Assembly: GCF_900184225.1 (NCBI RefSeq)
Contig: NZ_FXWZ01000002.1
Span: forward strand, 850,369-914,368
Reading direction: 5' to 3'
Source of the DNA: Brevibacterium ihuae
GTDB lineage: Bacteria; Actinomycetota; Actinomycetes; Actinomycetales; Brevibacteriaceae
Length of the DNA stretch: 64,000 bases
In this document: positions 41,755-52,822 of the stretch, in pieces
Position numbering within the stretch: the first letter of the stretch is position 1
How the letters are laid out: every line of letters starts with the position of its first letter
Made by a program: the position numbers and the translations under genes
The notes under the pieces: model-generated
Told to the model about the DNA's origin: nothing
Seen by the model: the letters and a program-made list of their open reading frames with translations, nothing else
Databases searched by the model: none

Positions 41755-41845
41755 CCCGGGCCCACAGCACCCGGGCGACGCGACTCCACCCACCTCTGCG
41801 GTGATCCGCCCGCACCCGGGTGCTCCTTCCTCTTCCCAGGAGCAC
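41755..41845 (+). promoter_or_regulatory. Translational attenuator of erm (mutually exclusive hairpins)
   Basis: Three competing pairings are visible. Hairpin C: CCCGGG 41755-41760 with CCCGGG 41770-41775. Hairpin A: AGCACCCGGG 41766-41775 with CCCGGGTGCT 41815-41824. Hairpin B: GTGCTCC 41820-41826 with GGAGCAC 41839-41845, which hides the AGGAG of erm. A excludes both B and C; C frees B. The layout is that of inducible erm leaders. Confidence 0.7.
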
Positions 41846-41849
41846 CGCG

Positions 41850-42644
41850 ATGCCTCAGCATCCCACCCCCGGCGGCCGACATGAGCTCGGCCAGAACTTC
41901 CTCGTCCACCTGCCCACCGTCGAGCGCATCGTCGCGCTCGTCCGCGAGACCCGCGGCCCGATCCTCGAGATCGGTGCCGGCGACGGAGCCCTCACCCGTC
42001 CGCTCGCGGACCTCGGCCGGGAGATCCGCGCGATCGACATCGACGCCCGTCGGGTCTCCCGCCTGCGCGCTCGCCTGCCCGGCGTGCGCGTCGATCACGC
42101 CGATGTGCTCGAGGTCCCGCTCGACGCTCCGGTGATCGTCGGCAACATCCCGTTCCACCTCACGACACCGATCCTGCGGCGCCTGCTCTCCGCGGACGGC
42201 TGGCGCACCGCGGTCCTCCTCACCCAGTGGGAGGTCGCCCGCAAGCGCGCCGGGGTGGGCGGCGGGACGCTCCTCACCGCGCAGACCGCACCGTGGTTCG
42301 CGTTCCACCTCGATCAGCGCGTGCCGGCTGCGGCGTTCCGTCCGCGGCCGAACGTCGACGGCGGTCTCCTCGTCATCGCGCGACGGGACCGACCGCTCGT
42401 CCCGCCATCCGATCGCGTGCGCTACGCGTCGTTCGTCCGTCGCGTCTTCGGAGCGCGGGGCCGGACGCTCGAGCAGATGTACTCCGCGGCGACGGGGAGC
42501 ACCCGGCGTGACGCCGGCCGGGAGCTCGGCCGGGCGCACGTCCCCGGTCGTCTCCTCCCCCGCGACCTCGGGCCCGAGGAGTGGGCAGCGCTGTGGAGGG
42601 AGACGAACCGGGACCGCGCCGCGCCGCGGCGCCGTCCTCGGTAG
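41850..42644 (+). CDS. erm: 23S rRNA adenine N6-methyltransferase, Erm family
   Basis: Methylates an adenine in domain V of 23S rRNA (A2058 in E. coli numbering), giving macrolide-lincosamide-streptogramin B resistance. 264 residues. Motifs: HELGQNFLVH at residues 11-20, SAM motif I EIGAGDGALTRPLADLG near residues 40-56, acidic DIDARR, and catalytic motif IV GNIPFHLTTPILRRLL near residues 97-112, then the basic actinobacterial C-terminal tail. The start at ATG 41850 (AGGAG 7 bases upstream) is preferred; an in-frame start at 41820 would override the attenuator. Standing single gene on the chromosome, flanked by housekeeping-like genes, so it is probably intrinsic. The exact erm class cannot be named here. 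Confidence 0.93.
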   Translation: MPQHPTPGGRHELGQNFLVHLPTVERIVALVRETRGPILEIGAGDGALTRPLADLGREIRAIDIDARRVSRLRARLPGVRVDHADVLEVPLDAPVIVGNIPFHLTTPILRRLLSADGWRTAVLLTQWEVARKRAGVGGGTLLTAQTAPWFAFHLDQRVPAAAFRPRPNVDGGLLVIARRDRPLVPPSDRVRYASFVRRVFGARGRTLEQMYSAATGSTRRDAGRELGRAHVPGRLLPRDLGPEEWAALWRETNRDRAAPRRRPR

Positions 42645-42653
42645 TCTGTGGCC

Positions 42654-44309
42654 ATGAGCGACGACGCGGACGAGATGGATACCCCGGGACCCGCCGTGCT
42701 GCACCGCGGGGAGCTGCACCCGAGCGAGGGGCTCGTCATCGAGCGCCTCCGCTCCCAGCTCCCCGCCGACGCCGTCATCATCCACGGGCAGCGCATCACC
42801 ACCGCCGAGGCCGACGTCGAGATCGACGTCCTCGTGCTGTGGCCGGGCGTCGGGATCGTCGTGCTCGAGGTCAAGGGCGGCCAGGTGCGGGTGGAGGACG
42901 GCACCTGGTCGACCTCCGGCCGCGGCGGCACCCATGCGCTCCGCCGCTCGCCGCTCGAGCAGGCGATGACCGCCAAGCACGCCCTCCTCGGCTGGCTCCG
43001 CCCGCGGATGAGCAGACGCGCGGGACGGATGGTCCACATGGCATGCCTGCCGTTCACGAACACCCGGAGCTGGGACGACATGGCGGACGTGCCGCGGACG
43101 TCGATCATCGGCCAGGAGGATCTCGACGACATCGCCGGGGCGATGAGCAGATTCCTCCGGACCCACATGCAGAGCGAGGGCCCGCCGAGCCGGGCCGCGA
43201 TCGACGTCATCGTCAAGCAGCTGCGGCACACCCAGACGGCGATCGAGAACGCCCGCTCGGCCGCGCTCGAGCTCGAGCACCGGGCGAACGCGCTCACCCG
43301 CGAGCAGGAGAAGCTCCTGTCGGTGCTCCGCTACCAGACCCGCGCCGAGCTCAGCGGCGGGCCCGGCTCCGGCAAGACCCACCTCGCGCTCCTCAAGGCC
43401 CGGCAGCTCGCCGCAGCCGGGCAGCGGGTCGCCCTCATGTGCTATTCCCGGGGCCTCGGCCGCTACCTCGAACTCATGACCGCGCAGTGGCCGGAGACGG
43501 AGCGACCGGCCTACGTCGGCCTGTTCCACGATCTGCCGCTGGGCTGGGGCGCGGTCCACGCCGGCGACGACGACCCGGAGTACTGGGAGGTCGTCCTCCC
43601 CACGCGGATGCGCGAGCTCGCCGCCTCCCGCGACCGCGCCGAGCTGTTCGACGCGATCATCGTCGACGAGGGCCAGGACTTCTCCAACCTCTGGTGGGAG
43701 GCGGTGCTGTCGTGCCTGCGCGATCCCGACAGCGGGGTGCTCTACGTCTTCACCGACGAGCAGCAGCGGATCTTCGACCGCGACGGCGACGCGCCCATCG
43801 AGATGAATCCCTTCCATCTGGGCGAGAACCTCCGCAATGCGCAGACGGTCGCCGAGGCGTTCGGCTGGCTGTCCGACGAGCCGCAGATCGTCCGCAACCC
43901 CGGCGGGGAGCCGGTGGAGCAGATCGACGTGCCGTTCGCCGACGCGTTCGGCGCCGCCGACGACGCGGTCGACCGGCTGCTCGAGGGCGGGGACTGGCGG
44001 CCCGGGGACGTCGCCCTGCTCACGACCTACAGCCGCCACCCGGTGCAGAAGGAGACCGTCGTCGCGGAAGGGTACGACGCGTACTGGGACGAGTTCCTCT
44101 CCGGCTCGGAGGTGTTCTACGGCCACGTGCTCGGTTTCAAGGGCCTCGAGCGCCCCGTGGTCGTCTTCTGCATCAACGGCTTCCGCGACGCCTCCCGCGC
44201 GCGCGAGATGCTCTACGTCGGGATGTCGCGGGCGCGGTCGAAGCTCGTGCTCGTCGGCGACATGACGGAGATCGAGCGCCTCATCGCCGCGGACGACGAC
44301 GGCGCCTGA
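42654..44309 (+). CDS. NERD nuclease-related domain plus superfamily 1 helicase
   Basis: A 551-residue two-module protein. The N-terminal NERD domain (about 20-130) has the endonuclease-like D-x(n)-E-x-K pattern in ADVEIDVLVLWPGVGIVVLEVKGG. The C-terminal UvrD/Rep-like ATPase part has Walker A SGGPGSGKTHLALLKARQLA near residue 240, Walker B AIIVDEGQDFSN near residue 337, and the final motif LYVGMSRARSKLVLVGD near residue 522. A DNA or RNA processing role is expected; specifics are unknown. TAGTCT at 42642-42647 overlaps the erm stop and lies 6 bases before ATG 42654, so a leaderless transcript separate from erm is likely. A GTG at 42648 is the alternative start. Confidence 0.88.
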   Translation: MSDDADEMDTPGPAVLHRGELHPSEGLVIERLRSQLPADAVIIHGQRITTAEADVEIDVLVLWPGVGIVVLEVKGGQVRVEDGTWSTSGRGGTHALRRSPLEQAMTAKHALLGWLRPRMSRRAGRMVHMACLPFTNTRSWDDMADVPRTSIIGQEDLDDIAGAMSRFLRTHMQSEGPPSRAAIDVIVKQLRHTQTAIENARSAALELEHRANALTREQEKLLSVLRYQTRAELSGGPGSGKTHLALLKARQLAAAGQRVALMCYSRGLGRYLELMTAQWPETERPAYVGLFHDLPLGWGAVHAGDDDPEYWEVVLPTRMRELAASRDRAELFDAIIVDEGQDFSNLWWEAVLSCLRDPDSGVLYVFTDEQQRIFDRDGDAPIEMNPFHLGENLRNAQTVAEAFGWLSDEPQIVRNPGGEPVEQIDVPFADAFGAADDAVDRLLEGGDWRPGDVALLTTYSRHPVQKETVVAEGYDAYWDEFLSGSEVFYGHVLGFKGLERPVVVFCINGFRDASRAREMLYVGMSRARSKLVLVGDMTEIERLIAADDDGA

Positions 44310-44316
44310 GCCGACC

Positions 44317-45066
44317 TCAGCCCCGCCGCGCGCGCACGAACTCGACGAAGGCGCGCGCCACCGGCTCGCCGCTGTCCTCGATGACCTGTTCGGCCGCCGT
44401 GATCTCGGCGACCACGCCGTCGGCGGTGAGCCCGCCGGGCAGCTCGGTGTCCGAGGCCGTGATCCAGCCGGCGATCTGCTCCCCGGTCGACTCCGGGTGG
44501 AACTGCGTGCCCCAGGCCATGTCGCCCACCCGGAACGCCTGGACCGGCGCTGCGGTCCCGGTGACGAGGAGCACCGAGTGCTCCGGCGGGTGGATCTCGT
44601 CGCGGTGGAAGAGCACCGACCGGCCGCGGGCCGGATGGGCGGAGAACACCGGGTCCGCCGCCGCCTCCGGGGTCGGGACGATCTCGAGCGCACCGTACTG
44701 CCCCGCCTCCCGGCGGCTGATCGAACCGCCGGTCGCCACCGCGAGCATCTGCCCCCCGAGGCAGATGTTGAAGCTCGGGAACGCACCGTGCCCGGAGGCG
44801 GCGAGCAGGCCCCGCACGTGCGGGAACCACGGGCTCACCGCATCGTCGAGCGCGCCCGCCGCACCGCCGAGCACGACGAGCGCGTCGGCGGTGCCCGTGA
44901 ACGCCGCGGGGTCCGGCAGGGGCTCGCCGAGGTCCGGCCGGGCCACGGTCACCTGCGCCCCGGCGGCCTCGAGCCAGTCGCCGAACCGGCGGGCGTCCGT
45001 GCCCTCCTCGTGCTGGACGACGAGGATGCGGACGGGCGCCTCGGGCGCGGGCGGTGTCTCGGTCAT
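44317..45066 (-). CDS. Class I glutamine amidotransferase-like protein
   Basis: A 249-residue GATase1 protein like the N-terminal domain of GMP synthase: nucleophile cysteine in FNICLGGQMLAVATGG near residue 100 and H-x-E in TQFHPESTGEQ near residue 190. It has no synthase partner here. It ends a six-gene operon containing a gamma-glutamylamine synthetase and a PuuD, so it may hydrolyse a gamma-glutamyl amide intermediate; that is inference. It lies 9 bases behind the SDR gene and converges on the NERD-helicase gene with 7 bases between stops. Confidence 0.85.
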   Translation of the reverse strand: MTETPPAPEAPVRILVVQHEEGTDARRFGDWLEAAGAQVTVARPDLGEPLPDPAAFTGTADALVVLGGAAGALDDAVSPWFPHVRGLLAASGHGAFPSFNICLGGQMLAVATGGSISRREAGQYGALEIVPTPEAAADPVFSAHPARGRSVLFHRDEIHPPEHSVLLVTGTAAPVQAFRVGDMAWGTQFHPESTGEQIAGWITASDTELPGGLTADGVVAEITAAEQVIEDSGEPVARAFVEFVRARRG

Positions 45067-45075
45067 GCCCTCACC

Positions 45076-45858
45076 CTATTCGGCGGTGACGTAGGCGGCG
45101 GAGATCCCGCCGTCCACGGTGAAGGCCGAGGCGTTGACGAACGAGGCGTCGTCGCTCGCGAGGAACGCGACGGCCGCCGCGATCTCCTCCGGTTCGCCGA
45201 ACGTGCCGCGCGGCACGTGGACGAGGCGGCGCTGCGCCTGCGCCGGGTCCGCGGCGAACAGCTCGGCGAGCAGCGGCGTGTTCACCGGTCCCGGGCACAG
45301 CGCGTTGACCCGGATCCCCTGCTTGGCGAACTGCACCCCGAGCTCCCGGCTCATCGAGAGCACCCCGCCCTTCGAGGCGGAGTAGGAGATCTGCGACGTC
45401 GCCGCACCCATGATCGCGACGAACGACGCGGTGTTGATGATCGACCCCGAGCCCTGCTCGACCATGTGCTCGAGCGCGTACTTGCAGCACAGGTACACCG
45501 AGGTGAGGTTGACCGTCTGCACCTTCGCCCAGACGTCGACCCCGGTGTCGAGGATCGAACTGTCCTCCGGCGGGTTGATCCCGGCGTTGTTGAAGGCGAC
45601 GTCGACGGACCCGTACTCCTCCTTCGTCCGCCGGAACAGGGCGGCGACGTCGGCCTCGTCGGCGACGTTCGTCGGCACGAACATGCCGCCGAGCTCCTCG
45701 GCGACCTCGGGCCCGCGGACCTCGTCGAGGTCGGCGATGACGACGGTGGCCCCTTCTGCCGCGAGGCGGCGGGCGCTGGCCAGGCCGATCCCCGAGGCGC
45801 CCCCGGTGATGACGCAGACCTTGCCTGCCATCCGCTCGGACACGATGCGCTTCTCCAT
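45076..45858 (-). CDS. SDR-family alcohol dehydrogenase/3-oxoacyl reductase in the gamma-glutamylation operon
   Basis: A 260-residue classical SDR: cofactor motif TGGASGIG near residues 19-26, NNAG near 93, catalytic serine in INTASFVAIMG and YSASK near residue 159. An aspartate after beta-2 (VVIADLDE) favours NAD. In this operon, between an aldehyde dehydrogenase and an amidotransferase, it could oxidise the alcohol of a gamma-glutamylated amino alcohol to the aldehyde, a step that the flavoenzyme PuuB performs for gamma-glutamyl-putrescine. AAGGAGAACC precedes ATG 45858. Substrate inferred only from context. Confidence 0.88.
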   Translation of the reverse strand: MEKRIVSERMAGKVCVITGGASGIGLASARRLAAEGATVVIADLDEVRGPEVAEELGGMFVPTNVADEADVAALFRRTKEEYGSVDVAFNNAGINPPEDSSILDTGVDVWAKVQTVNLTSVYLCCKYALEHMVEQGSGSIINTASFVAIMGAATSQISYSASKGGVLSMSRELGVQFAKQGIRVNALCPGPVNTPLLAELFAADPAQAQRRLVHVPRGTFGEPEEIAAAVAFLASDDASFVNASAFTVDGGISAAYVTAE

Positions 45859-45874
45859 GGTTCTCCTTGGGTTC

Positions 45875-47239
45875 TCAGATCGCCTGCGTGGCGAAGAAGA
45901 CGTTCTTGGTCTCGGTGAAGGCGTCGACGGCGTCGGGCCCGAGCTCCCGGCCGAGGCCGGACTGCTTGTAGCCGCCGAAGGGCGTCGCATAGCGCACCGA
46001 AGAGTGGGAGTTCACCGACAGGTTGCCCGCCTCGATCGACCGGGACACGCGCAGCGCCCGATCGAGGTCCCGGGTCCACAGCGAGCCCGACAGCCCGTAC
46101 TCGGTGTCGTTGGCGATCGCCACCGCCTGGGCCTCGGTGTCGAAGCGGACGACCGAGAGCACGGGGCCGAAGATCTCCTCGGTGAAGTCCGGGGCGTCGA
46201 GACCGGGCGGGGTGACGACCGTGGGAGGGAACCAGAAGCCCGGGCCGGTGGGGCACGTGCCGGCGAAGGCGACCTCGGCGGCATCGACGTAGGCGGCGAC
46301 GGAATCGCGGTGCGCGGCGGTGACGAGGGGGCCCATGTCGCTCTCCGCGGAGCGCGGGTCGCCGCACACGAAGCCGGACACCGCGGTCTCGAGGGCGGCC
46401 ATGAAGTCGTCGTACACCGCGGACTCGACGAGCAGGCGGGAGCGCGAGCAGCAGTCCTGCCCGGCGTTGTCGAACACCCCGGCCGGTGCGGCGGCGGCCG
46501 CGGCCGCGATGTCCGCGTCGGCGAACACGATGTTCGCGTTCTTGCCCCCGAGCTCGAGCGTGACGTTCTTGACCTGCTCGGCGCACCCGGCCATGATCCG
46601 CTTCCCGACCTCGGTCGAGCCGGTGAACACGACCTTGCGGACGAGCGGGTGGGTGACGAACCGGTCGCCGACGACGGATCCCTTGCCGGGCAGCACGGTG
46701 AGCACGCCCTCGGGGATCCCCGCCTCGAGAGCGAGCTCGCCGAGGCGCATCGCGGTGAGCGGGGTGACCTCAGCGGGCTTGAGGACCACGGTGTTGCCCG
46801 CGGCGAGCGCCGGGGCGAAGCCCCAGGCGGCGATCGGCATGGGGAAGTTCCACGGCACGATGACGCCGACGACGCCGAGCGGCTCGGCGAAGGTGATGTT
46901 CACTCCCCCGTCGACCGGGATCTGGCGGCCGAACAGCCGCTCCGGCACCGCCGCGTAGTACTCGACGACATCGCGGACGTTGCCGGCCTCCCACGTCGCG
47001 TTGCCGATGGTGTGGCCGGCGTTGGCGACCTCGAGCTCGGCGAGCTCGGGGATGTGGGCGTCGACGAGGTCGGCGAACCGGCGCAGCAGCCGGGCGCGAT
47101 CGGCCGGTGCGAGGTGCCGCCACGTCTCGAAGGCGCGCGCGGCGCGCTCGATGGCGGCGTCGGTGCCCTCGCGGTCGACGAGCTCGACCTCCCGGATGAC
47201 CTCGGCGGTCGCGGGATTGATGACCTGGGTGATGCTCAC
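45875..47239 (-). CDS. Aldehyde dehydrogenase family protein (PuuC-like by context)
   Basis: A 454-residue NAD(P)-dependent aldehyde dehydrogenase. Seen: VVGVIVPWNFPMPIAAWGFAPALAAGN, cofactor loop FTGSTEVGKRIM, catalytic glutamate in LELGGKNANIV near residue 236, catalytic cysteine in NAGQDCCSRSRLLV near residue 270, and FGGYKQSGLGRELG near residue 425. The GTG start at 47239 overlaps the PuuD-like stop by 4 bases. It would convert the gamma-glutamylated aminoaldehyde to the acid in the pathway proposed for this operon. Confidence 0.92.
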   Translation of the reverse strand: MSITQVINPATAEVIREVELVDREGTDAAIERAARAFETWRHLAPADRARLLRRFADLVDAHIPELAELEVANAGHTIGNATWEAGNVRDVVEYYAAVPERLFGRQIPVDGGVNITFAEPLGVVGVIVPWNFPMPIAAWGFAPALAAGNTVVLKPAEVTPLTAMRLGELALEAGIPEGVLTVLPGKGSVVGDRFVTHPLVRKVVFTGSTEVGKRIMAGCAEQVKNVTLELGGKNANIVFADADIAAAAAAAPAGVFDNAGQDCCSRSRLLVESAVYDDFMAALETAVSGFVCGDPRSAESDMGPLVTAAHRDSVAAYVDAAEVAFAGTCPTGPGFWFPPTVVTPPGLDAPDFTEEIFGPVLSVVRFDTEAQAVAIANDTEYGLSGSLWTRDLDRALRVSRSIEAGNLSVNSHSSVRYATPFGGYKQSGLGRELGPDAVDAFTETKNVFFATQAI

Positions 47240-48048
47240 GATCCTCCTCGGGGATCAGGGGTGGGTGCTGACGGGGGCCGCGTCCGGGCGCGGGCCCGGG
47301 CTGCGGCGACGAGGCCGGTGACGACGCGGGCGTCCTCGGAGTCGTGCTCGGGGTGCCACTGCACGGCGAGCAGCCAGCCGGGCACGGTGTCCGGTTCGGC
47401 CTCGAGAATCTCGACGAGCCCGTCGGGCGACCGGCCGGTGACCCGCAGGCCCGGGGCCACGCGGTCGACTCCCTGGTGGTGGTAGCACGGGGCCGTGGTC
47501 TCCGGTCCGAGCAGCGCCGAGGCGATGGTCCCCGGCTCGCAGCTCACCGTCACCTCGCCGTAGGTCGCCGGTGCCGGCTGGTAGTCGCTGTGGCCGAGCA
47601 CCTCGGGCAGGTGCTGGTGGAGCGTTCCGCCGAGCGCGACGTTGATGACCTGGAGGCCGCGGCAGATCCCGAGCACCGGCAGCCCGGAGTCGATCGCGGC
47701 GGCGGCAAGGGTGAACTCGTGCTCGTCGCGCCAGTCCTGGCTCTTCGTCTCCGCGTGCGGCTGCACCCCGTAGCGGGCGGGCCCGATGTCCGCGCCGCCG
47801 GACAGGAGGAGGCCGTCGATCCGGTCGAGCACGGCGACGTCGGTGCCGTGCGGCGGGAGGAGCACGGGCACTCCCCCGGCGGCGACGACCATGCGCACGT
47901 ACTCCGCCGGGAGGACGGCGGCCTCGGTGTCCCACACGCCCCAGCGCGCGGGCTGCTGGTAGGAGGTGAGGCCGATGACGGGCGCGGGATCGTGCGCGCC
48001 GGGAGCGTCCGTCCCGGGTTCGTGCGGGTCAGAGACGCTCGAAGCCAC
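47236..48048 (-). CDS. puuD: Gamma-glutamyl-gamma-aminobutyrate hydrolase family (PuuD-like)
   Basis: A 270-residue class I GATase-fold hydrolase (peptidase C26). N-terminal VIGLTSYQQPARWGVWDTEAAVLPAEYV is the PuuD signature; the nucleophile cysteine is in LGICRGLQVINVALGG near residue 135, and H-x-E in LAVQWHPEHDSED near residue 238. It would release glutamate from a gamma-glutamylated product at the end of the pathway. GTG 48048 lies 20 bases inside the end of the upstream synthetase gene, so translation is coupled. Confidence 0.9.
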   Translation of the reverse strand: MASSVSDPHEPGTDAPGAHDPAPVIGLTSYQQPARWGVWDTEAAVLPAEYVRMVVAAGGVPVLLPPHGTDVAVLDRIDGLLLSGGADIGPARYGVQPHAETKSQDWRDEHEFTLAAAAIDSGLPVLGICRGLQVINVALGGTLHQHLPEVLGHSDYQPAPATYGEVTVSCEPGTIASALLGPETTAPCYHHQGVDRVAPGLRVTGRSPDGLVEILEAEPDTVPGWLLAVQWHPEHDSEDARVVTGLVAAARARARTRPPSAPTPDPRGGS

Positions 48049-49438
48049 GGACCCGCTCCCAGTCGGTGATCGCGGAGTCGAACTGACGGATCTCGACGTC
48101 GGCGGCGTTGAGGTAGTGGTCGATCACCTCGTCGCCGAACGCCTCCCGGGCGAAGGCCGAGTTCGCGAGCTTCTCCCGGGCGTCGCGCAGCGTGGTCGGC
48201 AGCCGGTCGGCGTCGCCGGCGTAGGCGTTGCCGTCGGTCACCGGGGGCAGCGCCATCTTCTCGTCGATCCCGCGGATGCCGGCGGCGATGAGCGCGGCCA
48301 CCGCGAGGTAGGGGTTGAGGTCGGCCCCGCCGACCCGGCACTCGACGCGCAGGGACTCCCCGCTGCCGACGACGCGGAACGCGCACGAGCGGTTGTCGAA
48401 GCCCCAGGCGACCGCGGTGGGAGCGAACGAGCCCTCGACGAAGCGCTTGTAGGAGTTGATGTTCGGGGCGAAGAAGTATGTGAAGTCCTCGATGCTCGCG
48501 AGCTGCCCGCCGAGGAAGGCGTGCATGAGCTCGGAGAAGCCGTGCTCCTCGTCGCCGGCCATCGCCATCGAGCCGTCGGCTCCGCGGAAGCTCAGGTGGA
48601 CGTGGCACGACGAGCCCTCCGCCGCGTCGTACTTCGCCATGAAGGTGATCGCCTTGCCGTGCTCGGCGGCGATCTCCTTGGTCCCGTTCTTGTAGAGCGA
48701 ATGGTTGTCGCAGGTCCGCATCGCCTCGTCGTACTTGAAGGTGATCTCGTGCTGGCCGAGGTTGCACTCGCCCTTCGCACCCTCGACGTACATCCCCGCC
48801 CCGGCCATCGAGTTACGGATGTCGCGCAGCAGCGGCTCGATCCGGGCGGTGCCGAGCAGCGAGTAGTCGACGTTGTACTGGTTCGACGGGGTGAGATCGC
48901 GGTAGCCGCGGGTGAAGGCGTCCTCGTAGCTCGTGTCGAAGCTGATGAACTCGAGCTCGGTGCCGACGTAGGCCCGGAGCCCGCGCTCGGCGAGCCGTTC
49001 GAGCTGCCGGGCGAGGATCTGCCGCGGCGAGGCGACGACGGGGCTGCCGTCGGTCCATTCGACGTCGCAGGTGACGAGCGCGGTGCCCGGCTGCCACGGG
49101 AGCAGGCGCAGGGTGTCGAGGTCGGGCTTCATGACGATGTCGCCGTAGCCGCTCGCCCACGAGGACATCGCATAGCCCTCGACGGTGTCCATGTCGACGT
49201 CGACGGCGAGCAGGTAGTCGCAGCCCTCCGCGCCGTGGTCGATGACGTCGTCGACGAAGAACCGGGCGCCGATCCGCTTGCCCTGGAGCCGGCCCTGGAC
49301 GTCGGTGAAGGCGACGACGACGGTGTCGACGGTGCCCTCGTCGACGAGGCGGCCGAGCTCCTCTCGGGTGAGGGGAGGTGCCGGGTTGGAACCGGTGGTG
49401 ACCCTCTGCGGGTCGCCGTTGCGGGTGGGGGCGCTCAT
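48029..49438 (-). CDS. Glutamine synthetase-like gamma-glutamylamine/ethanolamide synthetase (PuuA/GlnA4-type)
   Basis: A 469-residue GSI-fold ligase, predicted to ATP-dependently join glutamate to an amine rather than ammonia. Catalytic-core motifs: VGTELEFISFDTSYEDAFTRG near residue 150, VEGAKGECNLGQHEITF, NHSLYKNGTKEIAAEHGKAITFMAKYD, SCHVHLSF, and the C-terminal RVECRVGGADLNPYLAVAALIAAG. The N-terminal beta-grasp part (VDTVVVAFTDVQGRLQGKRI) fits the PuuA/GlnA2-4 group of actinobacteria, not housekeeping GlnA. The permease partner resembles ethanolamine permeases, which favours ethanolamine. GGAAGGA precedes ATG 49438. Confidence 0.9.
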   Translation of the reverse strand: MSAPTRNGDPQRVTTGSNPAPPLTREELGRLVDEGTVDTVVVAFTDVQGRLQGKRIGARFFVDDVIDHGAEGCDYLLAVDVDMDTVEGYAMSSWASGYGDIVMKPDLDTLRLLPWQPGTALVTCDVEWTDGSPVVASPRQILARQLERLAERGLRAYVGTELEFISFDTSYEDAFTRGYRDLTPSNQYNVDYSLLGTARIEPLLRDIRNSMAGAGMYVEGAKGECNLGQHEITFKYDEAMRTCDNHSLYKNGTKEIAAEHGKAITFMAKYDAAEGSSCHVHLSFRGADGSMAMAGDEEHGFSELMHAFLGGQLASIEDFTYFFAPNINSYKRFVEGSFAPTAVAWGFDNRSCAFRVVGSGESLRVECRVGGADLNPYLAVAALIAAGIRGIDEKMALPPVTDGNAYAGDADRLPTTLRDAREKLANSAFAREAFGDEVIDHYLNAADVEIRQFDSAITDWERVRGFERL

Positions 49439-49455
49439 GCGCGGTCCTTCCATGG

Positions 49456-50892
49456 TCAGTGGAGGCCGGATTCGGCCTCGGAGATCTGGGCGAACTCCTC
49501 CTCCGGCGCCTGGTGGACGAGGCGGTGGCGGGAGTAGAACCAGAAGTAGGCGAGCGCGACGAGCAGCACGCCCGCGGCGATGCCGGCGGCGAGCATGTCG
49601 ACGACGAAGGTCGCGACCACGGCGACCGCGGCGAGCACGAGGGCGATCGAGGTCGTCACCGCGCCGCCCGGGGTGCGGTAGCCGCGCGGCAGATCCGGCT
49701 CCTTGAACCGGAGCACGACGTGGGAGAGGTTGAGGAGCACGTAGGACACGGTGGCGCCGAACACCGCGACGTTGAGGAGCACGCCGCCGTTGCCGCCGGT
49801 GGCCACCGCGAGGATGAAGCCGATGGTGCCGGGCACGATGAGCGCCATGTACGGGGTCTTGCGACCGCCGGTGAGCGAGAGCCAGCGCGGCAGGTAGCCT
49901 GCCCGGGAGAGGGCGAAGAGCTGGCGCGAGTAGGCGAAGATGATCGAGAAGAAGCTCGCGATGAGACCCGCGAGACCGGCCCAGTTGACGAAGGTCGCGA
50001 GGGCGGAGTTCTCGCCGTAGACGACGCGCACGGCCTCGGGCAGCGGGTTGTCGGACACGCCCATCGCCTCGGAGCCGGCGGTGCCGGGGACGATGATGAG
50101 CATGAGGGCGCCGAACACGACGAGGACGCCCATCGCGACGAGGATGCCGCGGGGCATGTCGCGCTTGGGATCGGCGGACTCCTCGGCGGCGAGCGGCACG
50201 CCCTCGATCGCGAGGAAGAACCAGATGCCGAACACGAGGGCGGCGAGCACGCCGGAGATGCCGTACGGGAGGAACTCGCTCGACCCGAGCGAGCCGTCGG
50301 GCACGGTGTCGAACATGTTCGCCGTGTCGACGTGCCAGATCATGCCGAGGACGAAGGCGAGGAGTGCGACGACGGCGATGATCGTGATGCCGAAGATCAC
50401 GCGGAGGGCCTCGCCCACGCCCCACAGGTGGATGCCGACGAACACCGCGTAGGCGACGAGGTAGATCGTCCACGCGGGGACCGATTCGGGCAGGATGCCG
50501 AGCGCCTTGACGTAGCCGGCGATGAAGGTCGAGATCGCCGCGGGCGCCATGGTGTACTCGATGAGGATCGCCATGCCGGTGGCGAAGCCGCCGAGCGGGC
50601 CGAGCGCGCGCCGGGCGAAGCCGTAGCCGGCGCCGGCGGTCGGCAGCGTGGAGGAGAGCTCCGCGAGGCCGAGCGACATGCACACGTACATCAGGCCCAT
50701 GAGGCAGAAGGCGATCGCGAGACCGCCCCAGCCGCCCTCGGCGAGGCCGAGGTTCCAGCCGGAGAAGTCCCCGGAGATGACGTAGGCGACGCCGAGGCCG
50801 GCGAGCAGCACCCAGCCCGCCGCGCCCTTCTTCAGCTGTCGCCGCTCGAGATAGTTGTCCTCGACATGGCCGTACTCGACTCTGCGGGTCAT
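49456..50892 (-). CDS. APC-family amine permease (ethanolamine permease-like)
   Basis: A 478-residue, 12-helix amino acid/polyamine/organocation transporter. It begins VEYGHVEDNYLERRQLKKG and has VISGDFSGWNLGLAEGGWGG, LAELSSTLPTAGAGYGFARRALGPLGGF and GIWFFLAIEGVPLAAEES, the pattern I associate with ethanolamine permeases. It is the first gene of a six-gene minus-strand operon, 17 bases before the synthetase gene. ATG 50892 follows AGGA at 8 bases; an in-frame ORF extension to 51006 is not needed. Ethanolamine is the best guess; other amino alcohols or polyamines remain possible. Confidence 0.88.
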   Translation of the reverse strand: MTRRVEYGHVEDNYLERRQLKKGAAGWVLLAGLGVAYVISGDFSGWNLGLAEGGWGGLAIAFCLMGLMYVCMSLGLAELSSTLPTAGAGYGFARRALGPLGGFATGMAILIEYTMAPAAISTFIAGYVKALGILPESVPAWTIYLVAYAVFVGIHLWGVGEALRVIFGITIIAVVALLAFVLGMIWHVDTANMFDTVPDGSLGSSEFLPYGISGVLAALVFGIWFFLAIEGVPLAAEESADPKRDMPRGILVAMGVLVVFGALMLIIVPGTAGSEAMGVSDNPLPEAVRVVYGENSALATFVNWAGLAGLIASFFSIIFAYSRQLFALSRAGYLPRWLSLTGGRKTPYMALIVPGTIGFILAVATGGNGGVLLNVAVFGATVSYVLLNLSHVVLRFKEPDLPRGYRTPGGAVTTSIALVLAAVAVVATFVVDMLAAGIAAGVLLVALAYFWFYSRHRLVHQAPEEEFAQISEAESGLH

Positions 50893-50943
50893 CGCTCGTT
50901 CCTGTCCGTGAGTGCACCCGGCGGCCGATCGACCCCCTGCGCC

Positions 50944-50965
50944 AATGGTCTGTTCACAATCCATT
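50944..50965. promoter_or_regulatory. Candidate operator/promoter region of the gamma-glutamylation operon
   Basis: In the 179-base gap between the permease and the divergent GntR-type regulator, AATGG (50944-50948) pairs with CCATT (50961-50965), followed by TAGGAT and TGTAATTTC, an AT-richer patch than its surroundings. A FadR/GntR protein could bind here. Evidence is positional and weak. Confidence 0.3.
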
Positions 50966-51071
50966 AGGATGGGGACACTGTAATTTCGGTCACATCGGGG
51001 TGTCAAGAGTTCCCGCCCCGGGGTGTCACGAGTCGGAACGAGGGTCCAGGAATGGGAGCGAGGGGTCAGCG

Positions 51072-51761
51072 ATGAGCACGGTCCGCCCGGTGCGCACGGG
51101 CAATGCGTTCGAGGACACGATCGCGCAGCTCCTCCGCGCCATCCGGCTCGGCGAGTTCATGGTCGGCGAGAAGCTCCCGGCGGAGCGCGATCTCGCCCGT
51201 TCGCTCGGGGTGTCCCGCGCGACCCTGCGCGAGGCGCTCCACGAGCTCAAGGAGACCGGGATCGTCGAGGTGACCCGCGGTCGCTACGGCGGAACCGTGG
51301 TCATCGGCCTGCCGAAGGACCATGGCGACCTCGCGGCGATCGACCCGGCCGAGCTCGCCGACGCGCTCGCGTTCCGCGAGGTGCTCGAGACGGCCGCGGC
51401 CCGGATCGTCGCCGCAGCGCCGCTGTCGGCCGCGCAGCGGCAGGAGCTCCGGAGCGCCTGCACGGACTGCGAGGAGGCCGAGCTCGTCGAGTACCGCGCC
51501 TTCGACTCCCGCTTCCACCTCACGCTCGCCGAGCTCACCGGCATCCCCTCGCTGCGCACCGCGGCGGCGGAGACGCGCGACCGGGTCAATGCGCTGCTCG
51601 ACCGGATCCCGCTCCTGCAGCCGAACCTCGATCATGCGAACGACCAGCACGAACTCCTCGTCGACGCGGTGCTGTCCGGCGACGTCGAGGCCGCCGTGCG
51701 GCACGCGGCCGATCATGCCCGGGGAACGGCCGCACTCCTCCAGGGCTACCTGGAGGAGTGA
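51072..51761 (+). CDS. GntR-family transcriptional regulator, FadR/FCD subgroup
   Basis: A 229-residue regulator: winged helix at residues about 8-75 (LPAERDLARSLGVSRATLREALHELKETGIVEV) and a C-terminal FCD ligand domain with the metal-binding pattern D-x(3)-H (AFDSRFHLTLAELTG) and later histidines (NDQHELLVDAV, AVRHAADHARG). It is divergent from the amine permease, so it probably controls the six-gene operon and senses the amine, its glutamyl derivative or an acid product. GAGGGG precedes ATG 51072; the stop lies 16 bases from the convergent ppk2 stop. Confidence 0.9.
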   Translation: MSTVRPVRTGNAFEDTIAQLLRAIRLGEFMVGEKLPAERDLARSLGVSRATLREALHELKETGIVEVTRGRYGGTVVIGLPKDHGDLAAIDPAELADALAFREVLETAAARIVAAAPLSAAQRQELRSACTDCEEAELVEYRAFDSRFHLTLAELTGIPSLRTAAAETRDRVNALLDRIPLLQPNLDHANDQHELLVDAVLSGDVEAAVRHAADHARGTAALLQGYLEE

Positions 51762-51777: not shown

Positions 51778-52725
51778 TCAGAGGTTCGGGAAGGTGCCGA
51801 TCGACTCGCCCTCGCCGGCCTCGAGGAGGGACTTGCCGCGGCCGACGATCTTCTTGTCGACCTTGCCGACGACCTTGTGGTCCTTCTCCGGGTAGTCGAA
51901 CTGGGAGAGCACGTAGCGCATCGCCTCGAGGCGGGCGCGCTTCTTGTCGTTCGACTTCACCACGGTCCACGGCGCGTGGGCGGTGTCGGTGTAGAAGAAC
52001 ATCGCCTCCTTCGCCTCGGTGTAGGCGTCCCACTTATCGCGGCTGGCGAGGTCGGTGGGCGAGAGCTTCCACTGCTTGACCGGGTCGTTGGACCGGGCCA
52101 GGAAGCGTGCGGCCTGCTCGGCCTGGGACACCGAGAACCAGAACTTGATGAGGTGGATCCCGGAGTCGACGAGCATCCGCTCGAACTCGGGGCAGGTGCG
52201 CATGAACTCGAGGTACTGCGCGGGATCGCAGTAGCCCATGACGCGCTCGACGCCGGCCCGGTTGTACCAGGAGCGGTCGAAGAACACGAGCTCCCCGCCG
52301 CTGGGCAGGTGCTCGACGTAGCGCTGGAAGTACCACTGGGACTGCTCGCGCTCGGTGGGCACGCTGAGCGCGACGATGCGGGCGCCGCGCGGGTTGAGGT
52401 GCTCCATGAACCGCTTGATCGACCCGCCCTTGCCGGCGGCGTCGCGGCCCTCGAAGAGGATCGCGACCTTCTCGTTGTTCGTCCGGATCCAGAGCTGGAG
52501 CTTGAGGAGCTCGATCTGGAGCTGGCGCTTCTGGCGCTCGTAGCTGCGGCGCGTGAGCTTGGTGTCGTAGGGGTAGTTCTCCCGCCACGCGGGCAGTCCG
52601 CCCGGACCGCTCGGCACCTCGACCTTCGCATCCTTGGCGGCCTGGACCTTGACCTTGGAATGGAGCTCGACGAGTTCGTCGACCTCGTAGCGGTTGTGGT
52701 CGTGCTCGATATCGAGATTGGTCAT
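51778..52725 (-). CDS. ppk2: Polyphosphate kinase 2 (PPK2)
   Basis: A 315-residue cytosolic kinase that transfers phosphate between polyphosphate and nucleotides. Walker A is LFEGRDAAGKGGSIKRFMEH near residue 93, Walker B FFDRSWYNRAGVERVMGYC near residue 150, and the lid region follows (WKLSPTDLASRDKWDAYTEAKEAMF). Length and a single domain fit class I PPK2. ATG 52725 (MTNLDIEHDHNRYEVDEL) is preferred over an ATG 11 codons upstream that lacks conservation. It lies 97 bases after the thiol peroxidase on the same strand. Confidence 0.94.
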   Translation of the reverse strand: MTNLDIEHDHNRYEVDELVELHSKVKVQAAKDAKVEVPSGPGGLPAWRENYPYDTKLTRRSYERQKRQLQIELLKLQLWIRTNNEKVAILFEGRDAAGKGGSIKRFMEHLNPRGARIVALSVPTEREQSQWYFQRYVEHLPSGGELVFFDRSWYNRAGVERVMGYCDPAQYLEFMRTCPEFERMLVDSGIHLIKFWFSVSQAEQAARFLARSNDPVKQWKLSPTDLASRDKWDAYTEAKEAMFFYTDTAHAPWTVVKSNDKKRARLEAMRYVLSQFDYPEKDHKVVGKVDKKIVGRGKSLLEAGEGESIGTFPNL

Positions 52726-52822
52726 GCGGCCCCCTCGGCGCTGTGGGTCAAGCGGCACGGGAGGCGCCGCCGATCAATTGTACCGAACAGGGCGAGCGGT
52801 CCGGACGGGCGGGGTCGGACCC

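Follow-up and report, generated by a model that had tools for sequence, protein, structure and literature searches.

The window analysed here is a 64,000-nucleotide stretch of Brevibacterium ihuae (contig NZ_FXWZ01000002.1, positions 850,369 to 914,368; host genome of 3.1 Mb in 3 contigs), and the subject is a minus-strand run of six genes in it: a permease, a GSI-type synthetase, a PuuD-like hydrolase of the Peptidase C26 family, an aldehyde dehydrogenase (ALDH), a short-chain dehydrogenase (SDR) and a class-I glutamine amidotransferase (GATase), with a GntR/FCD regulator gene divergent to them (Table 1). A first-pass annotation of this DNA had placed all seven genes where we find them, and their Pfam and NCBIfam families agree with the names it gave. 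Gaps of 17 bases (permease/synthetase), 16 bases (ALDH/SDR) and 9 bases (SDR/GATase) and overlaps of 20 bases (synthetase/PuuD-like, the start of the latter being uncertain) and 4 bases (PuuD-like/ALDH) separate or join the six, and because of this tight spacing we read them as an operon.

Table 1. Features of the proposed operon and its upstream region (positions in the window)
Feature	Position	Strand	Evidence and remarks
Stand-alone class-I glutamine amidotransferase (GAT1)	44317..45066	-	triad C102-H190-E192
SDR, proposed gamma-glutamylethanolamide dehydrogenase	45076..45858	-	NF004713 458.8 bits vs cut-off 404
Aldehyde dehydrogenase, proposed gamma-glutamylaminoacetaldehyde dehydrogenase	45875..47239	-	PF00171 521.6 bits
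Peptidase C26 (PuuD-like), proposed gamma-glutamylglycine hydrolase	47236..48048	-	PF07722 204.5 bits; start uncertain
Predicted GlnA4-type gamma-glutamylethanolamide synthetase	48029..49438	-	PF00120 322.7 bits; alternative start ATG 49453
Ethanolamine permease (APC family)	49456..50892	-	TIGR00908 483.8 bits vs cut-off 381.75
Candidate operator dyad CAATGG-N12-CCATTA	50943..50966	.	11/12 vs CAAWGG-N12-CCWTTG
Candidate operon promoter	50977..51006	-	-35 TTGACA (51001-51006), 18-base spacer, -10 TACAGT (50977-50982)
GntR/FCD regulator, EpuRI-type, divergent	51072..51761	+	PF00392 62.3, PF07729 58.9 bits; primer mapping; start ATG 51072 likelier than GTG 51000

This is very probably a GlnA4-type operon for ethanolamine utilisation through gamma-glutamylation, with a repressor acting at the dyad. 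Ethanolamine would be imported by the permease and joined to glutamate by the synthetase in an ATP-dependent reaction. The SDR, probably NAD-dependent, would then turn the alcohol group into an aldehyde, from which the ALDH would form gamma-glutamylglycine, and the C26 hydrolase would release glutamate and glycine. The divergent GntR/FCD protein would repress at the dyad, just downstream of the -10 box, until released by ethanolamine or a derivative. The reactions of the SDR, the ALDH and the hydrolase, the inducer and the function of the operator are those we infer.

Ethanolamine as the substrate, put forward in the first-pass annotation, is backed by both the transporter and the synthetase. 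The permease scores above the cut-off of TIGR00908, the curated model for ethanolamine permeases, and the synthetase stays far below the equivalog thresholds of the GlnA, type III glutamine synthetase (GS) and gamma-glutamylputrescine synthetase models. In the available text of PMC6529630, GlnA4 (SCO1613) of Streptomyces coelicolor was assayed and called specific for ethanolamine. All 13 tested GlnA4 residues for metal, glutamate and ATP (flap position included) are kept in the window synthetase, 8 at an offset of +5 and 5 at +7, the residue list being that given in the same text. At the E327-flap position the window synthetase has F338, while the two other GS-type genes among the three in the host genome have Glu; the residue is F (118) or W (39) across 157 actinobacterial loci and F in 32/32 pseudomonadotal ones. 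The closest PDB sequences are 11zs and 5dm3, the latter presumably a Chromohalobacter protein. Assignment to the GlnA4-type gamma-glutamylethanolamide synthetases is well supported by sequence. A true glutamine synthetase was ruled out by the loss of the flap Glu together with the scores below equivalog cut-offs. Brevibacterium genomes that have such a synthetase carry one of two types, with 70-82% or 53-54% identity to that of the window (the nearest among the named genomes compared is that of Brevibacterium gallinarum, 82%). The two types differ in gene order and flanks (L245-L249 vs L004-L013), a pattern that suggests separate acquisition.

Gene content around the synthetase was compared in 78 loci (L004-L081), nearly all of Actinomycetota (L060 and L063 are labelled otherwise), in an independent phylum sample of 79 loci (L206 was dropped, having no synthetase frame above 550 bits) and in 32 pseudomonadotal loci, 30 from the sample plus L082 and L083. 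Slots were labelled with models at E 1e-8 or better, each seeded from the proteins of one phylum, and distant homologues may have escaped them. In the two samples, 75/78 and 61/79 loci have this type of SDR close to the synthetase, an association that is not due to chance; where at least 4.5 kb were available on both sides the counts rise to 64/64 and 52/56. C26 was found in 73/78 and 48/79 loci, or 62/64 and 40/56 with the same flanks. The pseudomonadotal loci instead possess an iron alcohol dehydrogenase (Fe-ADH; 30/32) or a GMC oxidoreductase (1/32) and often FGase (24/32), with only L311 showing none of the three. SDR, C26 and class-I GATase were never the best label of any frame in these 32 loci, and Fe-ADH, GMC and FGase were absent as labels from the actinobacterial ones; the window-type permease occurs in two pseudomonadotal loci as well (L313 and L324). 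Since unrelated alcohol-oxidising enzymes occupy the same slot, its substrate is likely to be an alcohol. This agrees with the earlier suggestion that the ligated compound, being an alcohol, calls for an SDR where the Puu route has PuuB, and the exchange of SDR for Fe-ADH and of C26 for FGase supports the predicted alcohol-oxidation and hydrolysis steps.

Active sites are intact across the homologues compared. The catalytic Ser-Tyr-Lys and Asp43 of the SDR are invariant in 75/75, the Cys-His-Glu of C26 in 73/73 and the Cys and Glu of the ALDH in 78/78. In SDRs, an Asp after beta-2 points to NAD, and Asp43 at this place suggests that the window SDR uses NAD. The top NCBIfam models for the ALDH are betaine-aldehyde and aminobutyraldehyde dehydrogenase, and C26 matches solved PuuD (6vtv) and SpuA entries (7d4r, 7d50, 7d53).

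The published counterpart is the SCO1610-SCO1615 cluster of S. coelicolor, described in the available text of PMC6529630 as comprising a short-chain dehydrogenase (named in the legend of Fig. 2), an aldehyde dehydrogenase, glnA4, a regulator, a transporter and an amidotransferase. We tied the window to this cluster through six published reverse transcription PCR primers (sco1612, glnA4 and sco1614), allowing up to 3 mismatches. The ALDH, GS and GntR genes contain the primer sites as expected, with 0-3 mismatches (6/6 in L194 and L202, 5/6 in L195 and L198). The regulators of these four loci are, like the window's, of the GntR/FCD type, and their genes are homologous to that of the window and include the sco1614 primer sites (1-3 mismatches); the hydrolase gene left over in each cluster encodes a C26.

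On the minus strand of the intergenic region, the candidate -35 and -10 boxes are followed by the dyad, and similar boxes occur in Brevibacterium intergenic regions. Perfect inverted repeats across the intergenic regions revealed nothing common to the loci; the dyad was first spotted by shared words and then by a fixed-gap scan. The loci used for its discovery and for the counts overlap in part; the controls were the remaining 12 gap lengths in the range 6 to 18 and a whole-genome search. The core AATGG-N12-CCAWT occurs at one place in the window against 0.02 expected matches, and AAWGG-N12-CCWTT at one place in the whole host genome (control 0). Across 158 actinobacterial loci, CAAWGG-N12-CCWTTG at 11/12 or better gave 75 matches near operon genes (64 loci) and 8 elsewhere, while the other 12 gaps gave 0 to 9 near-gene matches each. 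The dyad tends to accompany a GntR gene in range (both in 53 loci, GntR only in 19, dyad only in 11, neither in 75; Fisher p 2.4e-15, kinship ignored); six of the 11 loci with the dyad only belong to Amycolatopsis (L045, L049, L053, L054, L055, L057) and another is L036. Dyad-bearing groups include Brevibacterium (10/11), Lentzea (18/19), Amycolatopsis (7/8), Saccharothrix (3/3), Kribbella (4/7), Nocardioides (3/4), Crossiella (2/2) and Rothia (1/1); it was absent in Antrihabitans (0/3) and several singletons. The nearest relative, L004, shows it in the five-base core scan (9/10) and not in the six-base-arm scans, and L010 and L046 also carry sites in the core scan. The second Brevibacterium type (L245-L249, outside the 158-locus count) has sites of 10 or 11/12 in some loci and none in L248.

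Eight loci of one genus, taken as Streptomyces from gene order and primers, carry two dyad sites each: the site at the GntR-synthetase junction scores 10/12, and that preceding the permease or C26 gene scores 11 or 12/12. This fits the reported binding of EpuRI to the glnA4 and epuRI promoter regions in electrophoretic mobility shift assays, where promoters outside the cluster were shifted too (available text of PMC8998196). The motif is not described in the literature searched, as far as the text of these sources was available. We regard the dyad as a candidate operator for the divergent GntR/FCD regulator.

The class-I GATase that closes the operon probably belongs to the resident gene stock of Brevibacterium and is now read with the operon. 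Its Cys-His-Glu triad is invariant in 73/73 homologues and its fold is that of class-I GATases. Near the synthetase, a GATase of this type (above 100 bits) was found in 10/78 loci (L004-L081), all Brevibacterium, and the idea of the six genes as one old unit was ruled out on this ground; weak class-I GATases (24-26% identity) lie near L071 and L072. Within Brevibacterium, the gene is linked to the operon in 17/19 genomes with the window synthetase type.

Alternatively, the GATase might belong to the pathway and serve as a relief valve, hydrolysing gamma-glutamylethanolamide or some other intermediate in the way reported for AtdA2 with gamma-glutamylanilide; we hold this possibility as the lesser one. 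Its presence in 36/36 synthetase-bearing Brevibacterium genomes counts against a wholly independent role. On the other hand, it is retained in 13/21 Brevibacterium genomes without such a synthetase, it occupies a site free of the operon in seven loci of relatives, and its gene tree of 35 rows interleaves linked and unlinked copies, which takes no fewer than 6 changes. The GATases that other families have near the synthetase fall elsewhere in this tree, linkage was not found in any of the 17 genomes carrying the second type of synthetase (mostly with the genes on different contigs), and the fold is common to many glutaminases, several at similar or higher Z. If the GATase does take part, hydrolysis of a gamma-glutamyl amide is its likeliest job. 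A fuller scheme would join two hydrolases with opposite jobs, C26 finishing the route and the GATase undoing the first step when gamma-glutamylethanolamide builds up, under one repressor acting through one 24-base dyad common to many actinobacterial genera, with unrelated pseudomonadotal enzymes in the same alcohol-oxidising and hydrolase slots; as a whole we consider it rather unlikely. Separately, six loci from two further families of the phylum, coded f10 and f16 (L165, L166, L211, L214, L221, L228), have a class-I GATase and a permease near the synthetase and no C26 match in the stretch available, and there a class-I GATase may fill the hydrolase slot.

Several observations weigh against an ethanolamine operon of this design. 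In the independent sample, this type of SDR was missing within range from 18/79 loci (4/56 with 4.5 kb on both sides) and C26 was not seen in 31/79. The ALDH scores below the cut-off of every one of the 25 models shown, the curated name of the SDR model is 3-oxoacyl-ACP reductase, and the pathway would need just one GATase where the operon has two. The primers glnA4-rev and sco1612dw have matches at conserved sites of roughly 90 to 100 loci; primer mapping alone is therefore not specific, and the cluster match rests on the whole primer set. Finally, in the available text of the literature we came across no assays for this type of SDR, ALDH or C26, and the operon's enzymes are known here from their genes.

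Another primary amino alcohol (for example alaninol, serinol or 3-aminopropanol) could be degraded through its gamma-glutamyl amide by the same chemistry, as the SDR and ALDH would suit any primary alcohol. We consider this improbable, given a permease that passes the ethanolamine model, synthetase residues matching an enzyme called ethanolamine-specific in the available text of PMC6529630, and a regulator, ALDH and synthetase of the SCO1612-1614 type. A Puu-type route for putrescine or other diamines shares its PuuD-like and ALDH genes with the operon but is very improbable, with no PuuB-type flavin amine oxidase among the six genes by Pfam, 195.2 bits against a cut-off of 650 for the gamma-glutamylputrescine synthetase model NF045547, and, in 136/157 actinobacterial and 31/32 pseudomonadotal loci, an alcohol-oxidising enzyme of one fold or another close to the synthetase (flavin amine oxidases were not searched for there). 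The classical Eut route was ruled out, as a search of the host genome for EutB gave 0 matches (among 14 control genomes, E. coli matched; EutC was not searched for).

Adjoining the operon, a plus-strand gene at 42648-44309 encodes a helicase-like protein (PADLOC RTasNERD-Hel 111.6 bits, NERD+UvrD 79 bits; no match to NCBIfam models at E 1e-20). An Erm-type 23S rRNA methyltransferase gene lies at 41820-42644 on the same strand (NF000499 226.7 bits vs cut-off 212), for which the Erm(55), Erm(46) and Erm(38) models score higher yet stay below their own cut-offs. A polyphosphate kinase 2 gene (TIGR03707 378.8 bits vs cut-off 301.8) is found at 51778-52758 on the minus strand.

The route itself is known; what is new is the comparative backing that strengthens the SDR assignment, and the candidate operator. 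As published, the route has an assayed enzyme for one step and proposed enzymes for the other three. The exchanges of SDR for Fe-ADH and of C26 for FGase give independent support for the alcohol-oxidation and hydrolysis steps and point to the enzymes concerned, while the dyad bears on how the regulator works in many genera. Among other systems, the available text of PMC10132767 describes ethanolamine operons of Phaeobacter, with Chromohalobacter and Agrobacterium cited, that have the same proposed intermediates. The pseudomonadotal loci L082 and L083 have homologous synthetases (49-51%), but our 32 loci differ from the window in having Fe-ADH or GMC for SDR, FGase for C26 and often a TRAP transporter, the likeness to Phaeobacter being by description only. 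The Puu pathway of E. coli shares gamma-glutamylation, an ALDH and a PuuD-like hydrolase with the window, which has an SDR for the flavin oxidase PuuB and an ethanolamine permease for PuuP. AtdA2 and NpaA2 are GAT-like hydrolases of aniline-type pathways, of which AtdA2 is reported to hydrolyse gamma-glutamylanilide (available text of PMC11335346); the likeness, by description only, is that a gene for a GATase-like protein adjoins one for a gamma-glutamyl amide synthetase.

The closest system is that of S. coelicolor, for which the synthetase reaction, induction by ethanolamine and repression by EpuRI are in print (PMC6529630, PMC8998196, as far as available). In the former, SCO1611, SCO1612, GlnA4 and SCO1615 are assigned to the same four steps, those of SCO1611, SCO1612 and SCO1615 as proposals only, and the ethanolamine and SDR assignment of the first-pass annotation is hence already in print as a proposal. 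By the same text, the window resembles SCO1610-SCO1615 in its SDR, ALDH, GlnA4-type synthetase, divergent regulator, permease (S. coelicolor itself being without it), amidotransferase and proposed steps, but differs in gene order, with C26 placed between synthetase and ALDH and the permease at the head, and in having an additional class-I GATase after the SDR.
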